Origin: an uncultured Ruegeria sp. | GTDB taxonomy: Bacteria; Pseudomonadota; Alphaproteobacteria; Rhodobacterales; Rhodobacteraceae | Assembly (NCBI RefSeq): GCF_947497005.1 | Contig: NZ_CANMFF010000008.1 | Location: 62,001-126,000 of the forward strand | Length of the DNA stretch: 64,000 nt | Direction: 5' to 3' | In this document: positions 56,441 through 64,000 of the stretch, piece after piece | How the letters are laid out: every line of letters begins with the position of its first letter | Numbering within the stretch: the first letter of the stretch is position 1 | The notes under the pieces: generated by a model | The model's database searches: none | Told to the model about the DNA's origin: nothing | What the model saw: only the letters and a program-made list of their open reading frames with translations | Position numbers and translations under genes: made by a program

Positions 56441-57259
56441 TCAGTCGCCGAGTTTGGCGTGAATTTCGTGCAGATCAATTTCGCCGATCGGCATCTTGTT
56501 CGCAGGGTTTTCGAAATCGTATTTGAATAGCTCGAAATCCTGTTTGTAGATCTCATAGACCAGATGCATTGACAGATCGTCGAAGTAATCCTCGACCGGG
56601 TGTGCACGCATTGGTCCGTGGCCTTCAGATTCATTGAACCGTGGAATATCAGACAATGTAACAGAGTGCTCCAGCTCGATATTATTCAGAACATCCTGCA
56701 TCCCGTCGTTGAACGTTTCGGTCCAGAAAATCCGGTCATAGTGACCCCCGTTGACGATGAAGGTCGACACATGACCCGACATTGCCGACCAGTGAATATC
56801 CGGGTCCATCGGTCTGCGCCAGCGGATCGTGTCGCGCGCAAACAACAGAAATCGGCGGAAACTGGCGATCTGGTCAAACTCTCCTTTGCCGTCTTCACCG
56901 CCCACTTCAATTCCGTAGTTGTAGATCAGCGTCGGCACCAGATTGCCTCGGTATCGCTTACCATTTCGTTGAATGCCGCAAATCTTGTCAAAAAATGAAC
57001 TGAGGATGCGGGTATATGGATTGCGCACACAGGTGAAAGTATAAGACGCGTGATTGCGCACATTGTTCGATATCAGGCCCTGACTCTGATCAAATGCCCA
57101 TTTATGCATGCCGTCCTTGGCGTCATGGATATCACCATCGAAAAACTGACCATGGTCCGAATAATACATGATCTGACCAATGGTCGAGCAGGCACATTTG
57201 GGCACCACACGGTACACCATGCTTTCGCTCTCGGTCATCCAGGTACCGGGAAAACCCAT
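56441..57259 (-). CDS. Sulfotransferase family protein
   Basis: A 272-residue cytosolic sulfotransferase of the family-2 carbohydrate type. The PAPS-binding 5' loop is VPKCACST (Pro20-Lys21) and the 3'-phosphate motif is FTCVRNPYTRILSSFFD with Arg79. It would transfer sulfate from PAPS to a sugar or other acceptor. AAGGAGG lies 8 nt before the start. Divergent from the GT14 glycosyltransferase gene 143 nt away, which suggests joint work on a surface glycan. Confidence 0.85.
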   Translation of the reverse strand: MGFPGTWMTESESMVYRVVPKCACSTIGQIMYYSDHGQFFDGDIHDAKDGMHKWAFDQSQGLISNNVRNHASYTFTCVRNPYTRILSSFFDKICGIQRNGKRYRGNLVPTLIYNYGIEVGGEDGKGEFDQIASFRRFLLFARDTIRWRRPMDPDIHWSAMSGHVSTFIVNGGHYDRIFWTETFNDGMQDVLNNIELEHSVTLSDIPRFNESEGHGPMRAHPVEDYFDDLSMHLVYEIYKQDFELFKYDFENPANKMPIGEIDLHEIHAKLGD

Positions 57260-57402
57260 CTGCTGTGCCTCCTTCGCTGGTCAGGTCTCGATCCGATACG
57301 CCAGCTTTTGGTAACAAAGAACCAAAATTATTCTGTTTATTCAATCGCTCATCCTCAGTATCACGGTTGAAACCGGGCAGAAACGGAAATTACGTAACCT
57401 CA

Positions 57403-58980
57403 ATGGCAAAGATCGCCTATATATTGCTGTGCCATAAGGACCCTGATGCAATCATCGCACAGGCCGAACAGCTGACTGCGGCGGGCGATTGCATGGCGAT
57501 CCATTTTGATGCCCGCGCCAGCTCCGAAGCGTATGATCAGATCCGCGCAGCACTGAGCGGAAACCCCAACGTGACCTTTGCACCCAAGCGCGTCAGATGC
57601 GGCTGGGGAGAATGGTCCCTGGTGCAGGCCACGCTGAACGCCTTGCAAGCTGCTGTCGACACCTTCCCCCGCGCCACGCATTTCTACATGCTGTCTGGCG
57701 ATTGCATGGCCATCAAAACGGCAGAATATACTCACCGTTTTCTGGATGATCGCGACAAGGACTTTATCGAAAGCCACGATTTCTTTGAAAGCAACTGGAT
57801 CAAGACGGGTATGAAGGACGACCGGCTGATCTATCGTCATTTTTTCAATGAACGCACTCAGCCCAAGTTGTTTTATACCGCCTATGAGGTGCAGAAACGT
57901 TTTGGTCTGACGCGTGCAATTCCCGAAGACGTTCAGGTCATGATCGGTAGTCAATGGTGGTGCCTACGCCGCAGAACAGTCGAAATGATCCTGGATTTCC
58001 TGCGCCAGCGCCGTGATGTGATCCGGTTTTTCTCGACCACGTGGATCCCGGATGAAACGTTCTTTCAAACGCTGGTGCGTCACCTGATCCCGAAAGATGA
58101 GATTGAAAACCGAACTCTGACGTTTCTGATGTTCTCGGATTACGGAATGCCTGTCACGTTCTACAACGACCACTATGATATGTTGCTGGGCCAGGATTAT
58201 CTGTTTGCCCGCAAGATCAGCGCAGAAGCTCATGAGCTGAAGGAGCGGCTGGGCTCGCTCTACGCAAGTGAGGGCGTCGATTTCCCTGGTTCGAACGAAG
58301 GGCGCAACCTGTACGCGTTTCTTGCCGGTCGTGGACGCATCGGCCGCCGGTTCGGGCGGCGATTCTGGGAGGCCGGAAGTGCAATTGGGTCAGAACGGGA
58401 ACTGTTCATAATTGTCTGCAAGAAGTGGCATGTCGCCAAACGCCTTGTCGATCAGATCGCGTCGGAAACAGATATTCCCTGCGTTGAATACCTGTTTAAC
58501 GAAGAAGATACGTTGCTGCCTGATCTGGGTGGAATCGAAACAAACTTGACCAAGCGCACCCGCCATCGGCGGGCCGTTGTACGAATGCTGTTCGACAGTT
58601 TCGGGTCAGATCAGCTGGTTCTGTGTCTCGACCCGGCCAACCTTGACGCAATTCAGGATTTTTGCAGCGATCAGGCCAGAACTCATGTGCTTGAAATCGA
58701 ATGCGACTACTCGGATGACTATCTGATCGGTCACGCCCGTCGTGTCGGGTTGGCTGGTGACAGCAGCCCTGTGGAAACTGTTGCGCATCTGCTGCCCACG
58801 CTTCGCAACGATCTGAACCACGAATCCGAACAGATCCGTGCCGCCGGGTTGGAAAATCACCTGCGTCTTCGGGAAACGGCCCAGCGCGCCGAGAATGAAG
58901 CCGTGGTCGCCAAGTTTCTTGGGGTGAGCGAGGAAAAAGCCCAAGCTGTTATGCGGTTGGATTACCTTTTCCTCGACTGA
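57403..58980 (+). CDS. GT14-type N-acetylglucosaminyltransferase with DUF5928 C-terminal domain
   Basis: A 525-residue protein. The first ~270 residues match beta-1,6-N-acetylglucosaminyltransferases (IAYILLCHKDPDAI at the start, HFYMLSGDCMAIKT, and GSQWWCLRRRTVEMIL). The C-terminal ~230 residues correspond to the DUF5928 domain that follows GT14 in Rhodobacteraceae. The listed ORF begins 46 codons too early; the ATG at 57403 gives the proper start. It likely adds GlcNAc to an envelope polymer and pairs with the neighbouring sulfotransferase. Confidence 0.82.
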   Translation: MAKIAYILLCHKDPDAIIAQAEQLTAAGDCMAIHFDARASSEAYDQIRAALSGNPNVTFAPKRVRCGWGEWSLVQATLNALQAAVDTFPRATHFYMLSGDCMAIKTAEYTHRFLDDRDKDFIESHDFFESNWIKTGMKDDRLIYRHFFNERTQPKLFYTAYEVQKRFGLTRAIPEDVQVMIGSQWWCLRRRTVEMILDFLRQRRDVIRFFSTTWIPDETFFQTLVRHLIPKDEIENRTLTFLMFSDYGMPVTFYNDHYDMLLGQDYLFARKISAEAHELKERLGSLYASEGVDFPGSNEGRNLYAFLAGRGRIGRRFGRRFWEAGSAIGSERELFIIVCKKWHVAKRLVDQIASETDIPCVEYLFNEEDTLLPDLGGIETNLTKRTRHRRAVVRMLFDSFGSDQLVLCLDPANLDAIQDFCSDQARTHVLEIECDYSDDYLIGHARRVGLAGDSSPVETVAHLLPTLRNDLNHESEQIRAAGLENHLRLRETAQRAENEAVVAKFLGVSEEKAQAVMRLDYLFLD

Positions 58981-59309
58981 CCCACAAAACCATCCGACGA
59001 TTGGCGGCCTGCGGGCCCCCGCAGCCGTGCATTCCTTGCCTCGAAACGGCGTATGATCTGTTGCGGCGGGCAGGGTCCTGAGCGCCTGCAACTGCATTCG
59101 TGATTTTTGTTCAAAAATCGGATACTGTGCAGTCAATTGGGCCATTTTGTTCATTTTTTTCGATCAGTAATGCGGCCCTGGCCAGTGAAAAACACGAAAA
59201 ACAGGCAGGTCTTGTTTTCCGAATGACAGGTATCTGAGCGTCGAAGGATCCAAAAACACTGGCTGGAATAAGGTTGAATTTTGAAACGCAACTCCGGGGG
59301 GACACAGTT
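58981..59309. other. Upstream region of the multidomain fusion gene
   Basis: 329 nt without a gene. It holds a hairpin CTGCGG-GCCC-CCGCAG at 59009-59024 (probable terminator for the GT14 gene) and an AT-rich perfect stem GATTTTTG-TT-CAAAAATC at 59102-59119 that could be an operator or part of the fusion gene promoter. AT content rises clearly from 59100 to 59170. Confidence 0.5.
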
Positions 59310-62300
59310 GTGCCTATAGATCAAATTGCCAAATCCAGACCATACATCCCAAATGACACAGACTGGAAGTTGATATACAACGTCCTGCCGGGCGAAACTC
59401 AGGTTGCGGACCCGGCCGTCATCAATCCTCAGTTCGAATGCATCGAGGTGACCGGGAACGCGGTCCTGCCGGCGAAAGGCATGTATGTCGTGCTGCGAGG
59501 CGTGGTTCAGTTGCGCCAAGATGGGAAACCGTTGGCCAGCGCGGATGTTGGTGACTATTTCTATGAAGAACATCTGCAGATCACGGATATTCCCGTCAGC
59601 CTCGAAGCGCTTGCGTTGGACGGAACGCGTTTGGCCTTTCTGTCCAGTGAGGAATGGAAACAGATACCTGCAGATATCCGGAAACCCTGCTTTGGACGGA
59701 TGTTCGGCGATCTCCTCAGCGTCCAGATCCAGAACTTTCAGCAGCCGATCAATTGCTGCAGTGTAACCGCCGCAGCGCTCAGTATGTCGGCATTGGGTTT
59801 CAGCTGCGAGGTGAATGACATCTTCCGCGAATGTGCCCTGCCTTCATCCTTTGTGGTGAATGACGGCATTTCACTGGGAGAACTGTTTGATGTCGCCTGC
59901 ACCTACATTCACTCGCAGGGCCTGCGGGAAAGAGTGCAGGTTCAGGCCTATTTCATGGACGGGGACACGACTGACGTACCGCTGTTGCTGGAGGCCATCG
60001 ACGAATCCAATCAGTTGGGCGGCGACAATGATATTCTGGTGGCGAATTTCCAGGTCGGAGTCGCCCATGGTAAAGAGAACATGCCGGGGGGGCATTTTGC
60101 CGTTATTGCCAAATGCAACGCAAGCACCGGGCTTGTGCACATGATGGATGTGCATCCTGAGAAATACGGCAAGCTGTGGGTCACAACGATCCAACGGCTT
60201 TGGGAAGCGATGTCAGACAGGGACGGGACCTCGATGCGGTCCAGAGGCATTCTGCGCTTTTCGGCGCGTGCAGCGGTCAAAAGCCATCTGAAAACCTTCA
60301 AACAAAGATGCAACTATATCGACAGCACACGGTATCTGGCGAAAGATCCCAAGAAACGGCGCAACCTGTTCCGCCGCGCCACCCCAAATCTGAACTCTCT
60401 GGGTGTTTTGGTGGAAAGCCTCGCCATACATGGCGACCATCAAGTGGACGAAGACAAGCTGCTGCAGGCAACCGAATCGTCCTTTACTGATGCCGTCAGC
60501 CGGGTTGCGACTGCAAAAGATATGCACGAGATGGCAAAAAAATACCTGAGCCAGTCCGAAGACGTGCATGTGGACAGTTCGTTTCATAGCTTCGAGACCC
60601 GTGACGACAAGTCAATTCAAACCCCCGAAGACTGGTTCAAGGCTCAGTTGAAAAGCCTGAAGGTCAACAAGGATCGTCACCTGATGATCAACATCGATTT
60701 CAATCGCGTAACCGGGATAAACGCGATCGAACCGCCGAAAAATGTGTACCGTGAAACCGCGCTGCTGGAAGAGTTCTGGTGTCTGTGCATCGATTACGAC
60801 GAAGACGAAGACGTTGTGACCATTGTCGACATGAGCCCTGCAACTTCACAAGTCTGGCAGGCGCCTCGCGGCAATATTTTCCGTGGTCTGCGCGATCTCG
60901 AAGACCCGGCACTTGTGTTAATCGAAGAGGTTGAGCCGCCCGAAGACCCTGGTGATGTCGACAGTATCATCAAGAACAACCCGATGGTCCTGTTTTACGA
61001 GGATGAAGATCCCTGGTCCTACATGCTCAGAAGTATCCTTTCGAACATCGGCGCAACGAGCGTCAAACAAGTGGATGTGGGTGGGCGTGATCCGAATGCC
61101 ATAAAGATGCGGCGGCAATTGGTATCGCTTGGTCACAAGCCCAAGGTTCCATACCTGTTTTTCAAAGGCAAATGCATCAGCAAAAGCGAGAAGCTGCAAG
61201 ATATCGTGGATATGATCAAGTCAGGTCACCTGCAAGACCGTATGCGCGGCGCAGGGCTTCCCGTTTCAAAACTGGATGATACACCCAGTCTGAACAAGAA
61301 TATGTTTGGCTATCCCAAGGGGGTGCTGAACGAGGTCAGTGCCGGCAAGCGCAATGTGTTGTTATGCGCCTGTGGATCCTCGGCCGCGGACAAGATCCCT
61401 GAACTTGTCGAACGCATCGTCGATGCGGGGCACAACGTCAAGTTGATCCCTTCGGTATCTGCCGAAAAGTTCTTTCGGGATTTTGGCGCTGAACGAATCG
61501 ACGCCAAGATCACCCACAACGACTATTACCGCGACGACGATGAGTGGAACTTCCGATACATGGAGTTCGACATGCCGGTGCGCGCCTCGCATCTTGCCCT
61601 TTGTGACTGGGCCGATTGCGTGATCGTGGCACCCATTACCTGCAACACGATGGGCAAGGTGGCGAACGGGATCGCCGACAATCTTCTAACCTCGGTCTTC
61701 GTGGCTTGGCAGTACCAGAAGAAACCAGTGATCCTTTGCCCCGCGTGCAACACGAATATGTGGAACAACATCACGACCCAGAACAACGTCTCAAAACTGA
61801 AAATGCTGGGCGCGGATCTCATTGGACCCCGGGAAGGACGCCTGTCCAACGGCCGGATGGGTATCGGTATGATGGCCACTCCGGACCAGATCATGGAAGC
61901 ACTGGGCGAAGCTTTCGAGGAGCTGGACGACCAGAAGTACCGCGTTTGCAAATGGGCGCGAGAGGCTGCCGCTGCCGATGATATCAATGAATGGAAACGC
62001 GTGTTCCGCGTTATTGATGAAGGTATCGTCGGCGTCAATATTGTGGACGAAACCCACGGGGATTCATTGCTGCATTATGCAGCAGGTGGTGAGGGTGAGT
62101 TGAATGAAGGCGGTCATGATCTGGGCAAGCCCGACTATGAAGCCGCTCAAGATCTGATTGACAGGGAAATTGACGTCAACATTGTCAATGATCACGGGTT
62201 TACGGCGCTGCATGTTGCGGTGATGAACAAAGCCCCGAAGATGGTCGAAATCCTGTTGGCGGCAGAGGGCATGGATGCGACCTCGTGCATCGAGTTTGTT

Positions 62301-62909
62301 CAAGGCGCGGATATCTCACCCGAGATCCGGGCCATGCTGGATGTTTGGGCACGGGATCACAATCTGAAAATGGCAGATGCCGAACAGGGGCGCGATGAAA
62401 GTTTTGTGACCGTGAACGAACCTTCTTACCTGTACTTCACATACGGGTCACTAAAGCAGGGGTTCCCCAATCATGACGCGCACAACACAGTTCTGAACGA
62501 CTTCGTGGGGACGGCCCGCACGCGGCAGCCAATGCCTCTGATCGTTCCGAAAGAGCCCTTCTGCGACAATCCGAACTGCAAGTTTCTGCATCGGATGGCA
62601 ACGCTTGTCGATCAACAGGGCATGGGCAAACAGGTAAGCGGTGAGGTCTACCGGGTCACGGAATCCGGCTTGCATGAACTGGACAGACTGGAAGGCTATC
62701 ATGGCCCCGGTTCACCCGAGAACGTCTATATCCGCAAGAAGATCAATGTGGTCGTGGATGGCGTGATGAAGCCAGCTTATGCCTATGTGATCGCTGACCC
62801 CGCGAAGTATCTGCAGGGATTACGCGATGGAACTTCTGAAATGGTGAACGACTACACACTCGATATGGCGCAGGGCGAACTCAAACCGGGTTTCAAATCC
62901 GAAGATTAG
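59310..62909 (+). CDS. Multidomain fusion: CNMP-like / phytochelatin synthase / Grx-like / HFCD flavoprotein / ankyrin / GGCT
   Basis: Numbering follows the 1211-residue ORF from TTG 59274; I prefer GTG 59310 (1199 residues), after GGGGGGAC. Domains: cyclic-nucleotide-binding-like, 45-135; phytochelatin synthase, 150-335, with Cys162 (NCCS), His274 (GGHF) and Asp292; a degenerate second copy, about 440-545, with Phe501 in place of His; glutaredoxin-like, 568-660, without its CPYC; an HFCD flavoprotein domain like phosphopantothenoylcysteine decarboxylase, 693-880, with His773, Asn826 (PACNTNMW) and a clamp RLSNGRMGIGMM where the reducing Cys is Asn859; ankyrin-like, 928-1000; gamma-glutamylcyclotransferase, 1051-1180, with YGSL and Glu1140. 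All catalytic parts act on glutathione-type or cysteinyl substrates. Cytosolic, with no signal peptide. The stop overlaps that of the convergent channel gene by 4 nt. The joint pathway is inference. Confidence 0.85.
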   Translation: MPIDQIAKSRPYIPNDTDWKLIYNVLPGETQVADPAVINPQFECIEVTGNAVLPAKGMYVVLRGVVQLRQDGKPLASADVGDYFYEEHLQITDIPVSLEALALDGTRLAFLSSEEWKQIPADIRKPCFGRMFGDLLSVQIQNFQQPINCCSVTAAALSMSALGFSCEVNDIFRECALPSSFVVNDGISLGELFDVACTYIHSQGLRERVQVQAYFMDGDTTDVPLLLEAIDESNQLGGDNDILVANFQVGVAHGKENMPGGHFAVIAKCNASTGLVHMMDVHPEKYGKLWVTTIQRLWEAMSDRDGTSMRSRGILRFSARAAVKSHLKTFKQRCNYIDSTRYLAKDPKKRRNLFRRATPNLNSLGVLVESLAIHGDHQVDEDKLLQATESSFTDAVSRVATAKDMHEMAKKYLSQSEDVHVDSSFHSFETRDDKSIQTPEDWFKAQLKSLKVNKDRHLMINIDFNRVTGINAIEPPKNVYRETALLEEFWCLCIDYDEDEDVVTIVDMSPATSQVWQAPRGNIFRGLRDLEDPALVLIEEVEPPEDPGDVDSIIKNNPMVLFYEDEDPWSYMLRSILSNIGATSVKQVDVGGRDPNAIKMRRQLVSLGHKPKVPYLFFKGKCISKSEKLQDIVDMIKSGHLQDRMRGAGLPVSKLDDTPSLNKNMFGYPKGVLNEVSAGKRNVLLCACGSSAADKIPELVERIVDAGHNVKLIPSVSAEKFFRDFGAERIDAKITHNDYYRDDDEWNFRYMEFDMPVRASHLALCDWADCVIVAPITCNTMGKVANGIADNLLTSVFVAWQYQKKPVILCPACNTNMWNNITTQNNVSKLKMLGADLIGPREGRLSNGRMGIGMMATPDQIMEALGEAFEELDDQKYRVCKWAREAAAADDINEWKRVFRVIDEGIVGVNIVDETHGDSLLHYAAGGEGELNEGGHDLGKPDYEAAQDLIDREIDVNIVNDHGFTALHVAVMNKAPKMVEILLAAEGMDATSCIEFVQGADISPEIRAMLDVWARDHNLKMADAEQGRDESFVTVNEPSYLYFTYGSLKQGFPNHDAHNTVLNDFVGTARTRQPMPLIVPKEPFCDNPNCKFLHRMATLVDQQGMGKQVSGEVYRVTESGLHELDRLEGYHGPGSPENVYIRKKINVVVDGVMKPAYAYVIADPAKYLQGLRDGTSEMVNDYTLDMAQGELKPGFKSED

Positions 62910-64000
62910 TTTTCCTGCACACTGATCGGTGGCGGTTCGGAACGTTCCTTGATGCTGAGGTTATACGCAGTGATCGCCACCATACACAGCAGCACAAACG
63001 GCCAGAAGCTGGCCTTGGGAAAAATATTGTCCCGATAGTGGATAATCCGCAGCGATGACACCGCCTCGGAGGCGAAAAGATACGTGTTGATCGAAACCGC
63101 CAGCAGCATGAAATACATCAGGAAAAAGAACGATTCCATGTAGATCACAGGTGACCCCGCAAACCCTTCGCGCAGCTGTACATGGGCCAGCAGGATCACG
63201 AAGAACAGAACCGAGCAAGTGCCGATTACGCTGGACGTACTGAAATCGTGCCGCTCTGCCAGACCCTCGCGGCGGGTGACGGTCATGACCGCCCCAAACA
63301 GCAGCATCATCACAACAATCAAGGGGATCATGTGGACTATGAAGGCGTTTGCGAAATTACGTTTGATGACGAAATTATAATGCAGCTCAGGCGCATTGGT
63401 CCGGTACGCATTTTGTCGGATGCCCAGCGTCGTATCCAGATTTGACAGCTTGTAATCGAAATACGTGTTCTCACGTTCCCACGTTCCCATTACGATCTGG
63501 TTGTCGATCCCAAAGATGTCATCCGGCCCGGTCGCCGGATAAGCCTCGAAGTCAGGTACTATCGCAATATTGACGTCAAATGAGTTGGGCCAGAACCGCA
63601 CCCAAACCGTTTTGTGATCAAAAGGGTAGCTTGTGTAGTCAAAACTCTGACGCAGGGTTTGTTCGAAATACCACCCAATCAGCACGCCGTCGGGTTGCAG
63701 CAACCGATACGCCTCGGCAATCAGGCCGTTTGCGGTATCGACCGCTTCGGGCAGAAGAAAACCGACCTCACCTTCGGCCGGAATAATCGCATCATGTTCA
63801 CCTGTCTTGTAGTGCTGCCAGATATAGCCGGTAACTTGTATGTCGCTGGCACCCAGAAAGCTGAACGACTTTAGGAAGATCCCTGTTCTCAAACGGTAGT
63901 CCGGCGCCACGTCTAACTTGCCCAGATATGCATCAACCGAAGCCTGATCAGGCAGCTGCGTCGGATCACCCTCAAAATGGTTCAGTTCAATCCAAAGTTT
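62906..64000 (-). CDS. Pentameric ligand-gated ion channel homologue, 5' end outside window
   Basis: The frame is open to the window edge (about 30 residues before the listed start), so the N-terminus is missing. The extracellular domain shows GIFLKSFSFLGASDIQVTGY, a stretch typical of the first beta strands, and FDYTSYPFDHKTVWVRFWP, which is the Cys-loop region without cysteines, as in bacterial members (YPFD). Four membrane helices follow (ORF residues about 186-208, 224-245, 255-279, 302-320); M2 carries Ser/Thr residues that would line the pore. The M1-M2 linker is unusually long (~14 residues). The protein would sit in the inner membrane with its ligand site in the periplasm. Convergent with the fusion gene. 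Confidence 0.8.
   Translation of the reverse strand, partial: KLWIELNHFEGDPTQLPDQASVDAYLGKLDVAPDYRLRTGIFLKSFSFLGASDIQVTGYIWQHYKTGEHDAIIPAEGEVGFLLPEAVDTANGLIAEAYRLLQPDGVLIGWYFEQTLRQSFDYTSYPFDHKTVWVRFWPNSFDVNIAIVPDFEAYPATGPDDIFGIDNQIVMGTWERENTYFDYKLSNLDTTLGIRQNAYRTNAPELHYNFVIKRNFANAFIVHMIPLIVVMMLLFGAVMTVTRREGLAERHDFSTSSVIGTCSVLFFVILLAHVQLREGFAGSPVIYMESFFFLMYFMLLAVSINTYLFASEAVSSLRIIHYRDNIFPKASFWPFVLLCMVAITAYNLSIKERSEPPPISVQEN

Follow-up and report, generated by a model that had tools for sequence, protein, structure and literature searches.

The stretch of DNA analysed here (hereafter the window; 64,000 nucleotides, NCBI RefSeq assembly GCF_947497005.1, contig NZ_CANMFF010000008.1, positions 62,001 to 126,000) comes from an uncultured Ruegeria sp. 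whose genome comprises 5.27 Mb in 77 contigs. Close to its end lies a gene (59310..62909, forward strand) made of one uninterrupted open reading frame of 1199 amino acids plus stop, which begins with GTG and encodes a protein that joins a phytochelatin synthase (PCS) domain, an HFCD flavoprotein domain and a cyclotransferase domain on one chain. This fusion architecture is real and conserved, and it may represent a three-step enzyme acting on glutathione-derived thiols, a reading that is weighed below against several others.

The GTG at 59310 is taken as the start because homologues begin at the equivalent position in the alignment and a G-rich, probable ribosome-binding site (GGGGGG, 59296..59301, forward strand) directly precedes it, 8 nt 5' of the GTG; this G-rich stretch is kept in Ruegeria homologues. 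An alternative TTG at 59274, which would yield a protein of 1211 amino acids, is disfavoured. A first-pass annotation of the same DNA had counted from this TTG, and 12 must be subtracted from its residue numbers.

Domain composition of the fusion protein

Four Pfam families are matched above their cut-offs by the fusion protein, namely Flavoprotein (PF02441, E 9.5e-27), GGACT (PF06094, E 1.1e-14), Phytochelatin (PF05023, E 6.1e-11) and Ank (E 3e-6), and weak matches are obtained with cNMP_binding (PF00027, E 0.004) and Glutaredoxin (E 0.086). Flavoprotein, GGACT, Phytochelatin and ankyrin models each match all 23 members of the family alignment, and Glutaredoxin matches 13 of them. Residue conservation was read from this same alignment, and a residue is called invariant when it is found in every sequence that covers its position. 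An AlphaFold2 model built from the 23 sequences has a mean pLDDT of 73.6 and a pTM of 0.45, so that the relative placement of the domains is unreliable. A single Foldseek search with the full model nevertheless retrieved AtHAL3a, CoaBC, EpiD, human and mouse GGACT, and Alr0975 of Nostoc, together with cGMP-dependent kinase and thioredoxin-glutathione reductase. That the open reading frame is a chance product or a frame artefact is ruled out by full-length, collinear homologues down to 50% identity in which the active sites are invariant.

The first-pass annotation had described one protein with PCS, HFCD and cyclotransferase domains, and that observation is confirmed by the single reading frame, the Pfam scores and the Foldseek matches alike. 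The catalytic residues that it had named, which become Cys150, His262, Asp280, His761, Asn814 and Glu1128 when counted from the GTG, are all invariant where covered. Of the families that it had put forward for a Pfam check, Phytochelatin, Flavoprotein and Ank exceed their cut-offs in this protein and cNMP_binding stays below its own, and the structure prediction that it had suggested does point to AtHAL3a, human GGACT and Alr0975. It had overlooked a second PCS-like fold, a glutaredoxin-like domain devoid of cysteines, the GGACT type of the cyclotransferase and a Cys-to-Asn change in the HFCD domain. Its author knew of no described bacterial enzyme of this architecture; similarly, we found no description in 5.39 million open-access papers (subscription journals lay outside that search), and no curated NCBIfam model spans the whole protein. 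As far as could be found, the assembly is undescribed, and each of its parts belongs to a known fold family.

Relatives of PCS release glycine from glutathione, which yields gamma-Glu-Cys. The PCS-like, papain-fold domain of the fusion protein (residues 125-320; 59682..60269, forward strand) scores 42.4 bits with PF05023 for a curated cut-off of 24.9, and Alr0975 is matched in the Protein Data Bank (PDB) both by profile (E 3e-7) and by fold (TM 0.60-0.67), the Foldseek matches including its acyl-enzyme and glutathione complexes. The catalytic triad (Cys150, His262, Asp280) and the upstream Gln144 that characterize the family are present and invariant, and the spacing of 18 residues between His and Asp had been correctly reported. 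Two cysteines adjoin at the active site, and the nucleophile is likely Cys150, as previously chosen, rather than Cys149, because the latter is replaced by Ser in two homologues.

A second fold of the same type appears to follow (residues 330-545; 60297..60944, forward strand). In the model, helices and strands follow one another in residues 359-540 as they do in residues 150-319 of the PCS domain. The catalytic Cys and His seem to have been lost, other residues standing opposite Cys150 and His262, and Asp507 is retained. Alignment of the two regions with hhalign gave a weak match over 158 columns (E 0.015), and a profile search of the PDB with the second region gave no match. The assignment rests on the secondary-structure order in the model, since proof by profile is weak or absent; a duplicated, catalytically dead PCS fold is thus likely but not proven.

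The HFCD domain (residues 680-875; 61347..61934, forward strand) is assigned by profile (94 bits), by fold (TM 0.80 with AtHAL3a) and by its active-site histidine, His761. Its sequence is closer to AtHAL3a (E 8e-28) than to EpiD (E 1e-12), and its best Foldseek match is the C175S mutant of AtHAL3a complexed with pantothenoylaminoethenethiol. In a tree of HFCD domains it groups with the plant and human phosphopantothenoylcysteine (PPC) decarboxylases, with a support of 1.00 against CoaBC, and it shares 39-40% identity with the former versus 32-34% with CoaBC. A role as the housekeeping PPC decarboxylase of coenzyme A synthesis was rejected because the host genome carries a separate CoaBC-type gene (G000:C7) and the domain groups apart from CoaBC; it also lacks the redox cysteine of these enzymes.

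In PPC decarboxylases, decarboxylation follows from an oxidation in which a His, an Asn and a Met take part, and the subsequent reduction of the enethiol cannot proceed without a cysteine, Cys175 in AtHAL3a (PMC9604783). The residues of the first half-reaction, His761, Asn814 and Met817, are invariant in the fusion family, as is Trp818. The position of the redox cysteine is occupied by an asparagine, Asn847, in all 23 sequences, whereas the CoaBC and PPC decarboxylase sequences aligned with them keep the Cys, which sets the domain apart from genuine PPC decarboxylases. In addition, the PXMNXXMW motif reads PACNTNMW; its Asn, second Met and Trp are kept, and its first Met is replaced by an invariant cysteine, Cys813, found at this position only in the fusion family among those compared. 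With the three residues of the first half-reaction in place and the redox Cys replaced by an invariant Asn, the straightforward prediction is an EpiD-like decarboxylation that stops at the enethiol and does not yield cysteamine. Full reduction may take place only if another residue, for instance Cys813, substitutes for the redox cysteine.

The absence of that cysteine is a trait common to EpiD-type decarboxylases, which stop at the enethiol, and fold matches to EpiD, MrsD, SpaF and TvaF were obtained as well. One might hence imagine that the HFCD domain acts on the C-terminal cysteine of a peptide or protein, as in the formation of aminovinyl-cysteine in ribosomally synthesized and post-translationally modified peptides (RiPPs), with the PCS and cyclotransferase domains as accessory peptidases. 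The closer relationship of the sequence to PPC decarboxylases argues against this, as does the absence of any conserved small-peptide or lanthipeptide gene seen nearby in a search that was not exhaustive for short reading frames, and we find such a function quite improbable.

GGACT enzymes act on gamma-glutamylamines, and it is this type that the C-terminal domain resembles (residues 1039-1190; 62424..62879, forward strand). The first-pass annotation had rightly pointed to the YGSL motif and the glutamate, and had taken the domain for a gamma-glutamylcyclotransferase of the GGCT/ChaC type. The latter assignment was dropped, as the profile matches human and mouse GGACT with E 1.3e-8 but human GGCT with E 0.2, and the 50 best Foldseek matches contain GGACT entries (TM 0.70 with the human and mouse proteins) and no GGCT entry. 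The active site of GGACT comprises a YG[ST]L loop, the catalytic Glu82, Tyr88 and Tyr115 (PMC2954230). Its counterparts in the fusion protein, Tyr1045-Leu1048, Glu1128, Tyr1140 and Tyr1159, are invariant where covered, the glutamate having been aligned by profile and the two tyrosines by eye.

Three further regions complete the chain. The N-terminal domain (residues 36-135; 59415..59714, forward strand) resembles cyclic-nucleotide-binding (CNB) domains; it scores 17.4 with PF00027 for a cut-off of 27.5, and 17 of the 23 homologues match the model at E<=0.1, one of which, L042, exceeds the cut-off (29.1, E 9.9e-7). In its putative phosphate-binding cassette Glu86 is invariant, and the position where an arginine is expected (residue 96, aligned by eye) holds Val, Leu or Ile, which makes cyclic-nucleotide binding doubtful. 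A glutaredoxin-like domain (residues 548-652; 60951..61265, forward strand) was identified by profile against PDB glutaredoxins (E 2.6e-9). It keeps the cis-Pro region, and Asp567, Trp569, Ser570 and Pro614 are invariant; the CPxC motif has become DPWS, neither CxxC nor CxxS, and an intact glutaredoxin is ruled out by the loss of both active-site cysteines. Ankyrin repeats occupy residues 905-1000 (62022..62309, forward strand).

Four parts of the chain, the CNB-like and ankyrin domains and the dead PCS and glutaredoxin domains, have a regulatory look, and a second role as regulators is known for HFCD proteins of the Hal3 type (PMC9604783). Together with the loss of the redox cysteine, these traits would fit a protein without any chain of steps, namely a glutathione-responsive regulator or degrader in which the PCS and cyclotransferase domains generate glycine, 5-oxoproline and cysteine from glutathione, and the flavoprotein serves as a redox sensor or scaffold, in the manner of yeast Hal3 towards its phosphatase. 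However, all the residues of the first half-reaction are invariant, and the cyclotransferase resembles the gamma-glutamylamine type, not those that act on glutathione or gamma-Glu-amino acids. A regulator or degrader of this kind is unlikely in our view, though it is the most probable of the alternatives.

Distribution and genomic neighbourhood

A scan of one genome per species with two short peptide patterns, which distant relatives would escape, yielded 38 further fusion loci, nearly all full-length. Twenty-six are in Ruegeria and 12 in other bacteria, including Seohaeicola, Roseivivax, Roseibacterium, Roseovarius, SAR116/Rhodospirillaceae assemblies and one assembly of the gammaproteobacterial Halieaceae. 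The architecture is collinear at 50-88% identity across these genera, the SAR116/Rhodospirillaceae and Halieaceae copies being 50-55% identical to the Ruegeria protein. Among 199 genomes sampled across the family, 4 encode the fusion protein and 14 any PCS domain; beyond those, the fusion protein was not found in the class and phylum samples. No plasmid-borne copy was detected, plasmid matches being confined to the HFCD/CoaBC region. Some EgtB enzymes use gamma-Glu-Cys as a substrate, and in the Halieaceae assembly alone, the fusion gene is followed, after about 2.8 kb, by EgtB and EgtD genes of ergothioneine biosynthesis (L052:16286-18509).

In Ruegeria, the fusion gene is convergent with a gene for a channel-like protein, which is followed by a cyclase gene. 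The channel-like gene (62906..64000, reverse strand) overlaps the fusion gene by 4 nt; it encodes 387 amino acids and starts beyond the window, at the equivalent of position 64069 (full gene, L057:907-2070). The model of the protein, with a pLDDT of 60.6, comprises a transmembrane helix, a beta-sandwich and four helices. All 50 Foldseek matches listed are pentameric ligand-gated channels, with GLIC as the best one (E 2.8e-10), at low TM-scores of about 0.3-0.44 (0.37 and 0.43 for the best match). Assignment of the model to a divergent form of this fold is good, its details are not, and no channel family was matched in Pfam at E<=0.5 or in NCBIfam at E<=0.001. One characterized member of the fold, ELIC, is opened by primary amines, and cysteamine elicits its strongest response (PMC3119659). 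Standalone relatives of the channel-like protein, at 36-39% identity, occur in other genera of the Rhodobacteraceae.

The next gene, on the same strand as the channel-like gene and just outside the window (L057:2091-5366), encodes a protein of about 1090 residues with SAM, class III cyclase, AAA and TPR domains. Of 54 Ruegeria genomes, exactly the same 31 encode the fusion protein, the channel-like protein and a close orthologue of the cyclase, and the remaining 23 have none of the three; this count disregards a cyclase paralogue of 42% identity present in one further genome. Genes flanking the trio vary among strains. Thus, the Sulfotransfer_2 gene and the Core-2/I-branching glycosyltransferase gene with a DUF5928 domain found upstream (56441-58980) accompany it in only part of the Ruegeria loci. 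Independent support for the link between fusion protein and cyclase comes from two distant loci, G142, whose fusion protein is 55% identical, and L054. In both, the fusion gene is immediately preceded by a SAM/cyclase gene of the same orientation, with a gap of 33 nt in G142 and 51 nt in L054; the G142 cyclase is 31% identical to that of Ruegeria. The channel-like gene appears to be split in Ruegeria intermedia (L034:13657-14853), and four cyclase orthologues (G863, G1008, G951 and G966) each contain one in-frame TAG; the fusion gene is intact in all cases. The mere presence of a cyclase is unremarkable, as about 24 class III nucleotide cyclase domains are present in the host genome, several in proteins that share the size and SAM/cyclase/AAA/TPR layout of the neighbour.

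The proximity of a class III cyclase, a membrane protein and a fusion protein whose N-terminal domain is CNB-like is reminiscent of nucleotide-signal defence systems, in which case the cyclase would fire upon phage infection and the fusion protein would drain the thiol pool. The PycC models of PADLOC do match the cyclase domain (E 4e-19), and gain and loss of the genes are patchy within one genus. These matches nonetheless reflect the general class III cyclase fold, no PycTM or PycTIR effector of Pycsar was matched, and neither the fusion protein nor the channel-like protein has a meaningful PADLOC match, all of which makes a defence function very unlikely.

Metal chelation and the turnover of glutathione conjugates are established roles of the PCS family, and a reference to this effect appears in the list of PMC7411734. 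Detoxification of metals or electrophiles, with the PCS domain making phytochelatins or trimming conjugates and the other domains processing the products, is however improbable, given that the conserved neighbours were not seen to include a metal transporter, a metal regulator or a glutathione transferase, and that the free thiol on which HFCD enzymes depend is absent from S-conjugates.

A possible route from glutathione to a sulfur amine

The domains, folds, conserved residues, distribution and gene linkage were computed, and it is from them that we infer a substrate, an order of steps, a product and a mode of regulation. In a first step, the PCS domain would cleave glycine off glutathione via an acyl-enzyme at Cys150, to give gamma-Glu-Cys or a transpeptidation product. 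The flavin mononucleotide-dependent HFCD domain would then oxidize the cysteine thiol, and loss of CO2 would generate gamma-glutamyl-aminoethenethiol, or gamma-glutamyl-cysteamine after reduction if an invariant extra cysteine such as Cys813 can replace the redox Cys. Lastly, 5-oxoproline and a small sulfur amine would be set free by the GGACT domain. For the dead PCS fold and the glutaredoxin domain without cysteines, a structural role or the binding of glutathione is probable, and for the CNB-like domain a regulatory one. Since a class III cyclase and, in the Roseobacter group, the channel-like protein are encoded at the same locus, the reaction probably belongs to a signalling or stress response.

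The idea that the activities are used in the order in which they stand on the chain, already present in the first-pass annotation, is plausible. Gamma-Glu-Cys becomes a gamma-glutamylamine only after decarboxylation, so that a last domain of the GGACT type fits this order better than one of the GGCT type would have done. The second step is less simple than had been stated, since the residues that initiate the decarboxylation are present and the cysteine that would reduce the enethiol is not; the earlier interpretation is partly supported.

Several observations weigh against this three-step scheme. With Asn847 in place of the redox cysteine and Cys813 in place of the first Met of the motif, the reductive half-step may not occur, and the apparent loss of the phosphate-binding arginine weakens the case for cyclic-nucleotide control. 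No cyclase or channel gene was found near the fusion gene in the SAR116/Rhodospirillaceae and Halieaceae neighbourhoods; because these copies lack both partners, the enzyme can probably function without them. The host genome has no match to the cysteamine dioxygenase family, in a search without a working positive control that is uninformative. No paper on enzymatic formation of gamma-glutamylcysteamine was found in the open-access literature, and the mentions of this compound seen there were confined to papers on cystinosis and cystic fibrosis. On balance, we favour a single-chain, three-step enzyme acting on glutathione-derived thiols, but only tentatively, its chances falling somewhat short of even.

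Should this chemistry be borne out, a single polypeptide would lead from the main thiol of the cell to a small sulfur amine by a path for which we found no described counterpart, and it would become clear why a decarboxylase expected to stop at the enethiol is placed before a gamma-glutamylamine cyclotransferase. More speculatively, the locus might form a signalling module in which glutathione is converted to cysteamine or aminoethenethiol and 5-oxoproline, the product is sensed by the ELIC-like channel, and the cyclase couples sensing to cyclic-nucleotide control. To our knowledge, there is no established natural source of cysteamine for ELIC. That an enzyme with the potential to release cysteamine or a close relative is encoded beside an ELIC-like protein is striking, though this analogy is not evidence of sensing, and we give the module as a whole little likelihood. 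If real, it would be the first route from glutathione to an aminothiol independent of coenzyme A breakdown known to us, and would place an amine-gated bacterial channel in a natural setting. As to the ligands of bacterial pentameric ligand-gated channels, the channel-like neighbour suggests an answer that can be tested.

Comparison with known systems

With Alr0975 and the phytochelatin synthases (PF05023, peptidase family C83), the PCS domain shares the papain-like fold, the Gln-Cys-His-Asp set and the His-Asp spacing, but it is embedded in a multi-enzyme of 1199 residues and is followed by a second, apparently dead copy of the fold. AtHAL3a and human PPC decarboxylase provide the best sequence and fold matches to the HFCD domain, which has in common with these eukaryotic enzymes the His, Asn and Met of the first half-reaction and a DEW motif. 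It differs from them by its Asn at the redox position, by the PXCNXXMW form of the motif and by the presence of a separate CoaBC-type gene in the same genome. The peptidyl-cysteine decarboxylases EpiD and MrsD similarly share the fold and the lack of the redox Cys, and hence the expected enethiol product; in contrast, their sequences are less similar, and no RiPP cluster was seen near the fusion gene.

The glutaredoxin-like domain keeps the profile and the cis-Pro region of dithiol and monothiol glutaredoxins without their active-site cysteines. Relative to GGACT/A2LD1 (PF06094), the cyclotransferase stands at the C-terminus of a large fusion and carries a cysteine-containing insertion, CDNPNC, while the YG[ST]L motif, the active-site Glu and Tyr residues and the fold (TM about 0.7) are shared. 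Finally, the channel-like protein is set apart from ELIC and GLIC by the lack of a Pfam or NCBIfam match, by a low-confidence model and by an extra N-terminal helix, but the predicted topology is the same as that of these two channels, which are its top Foldseek hits.

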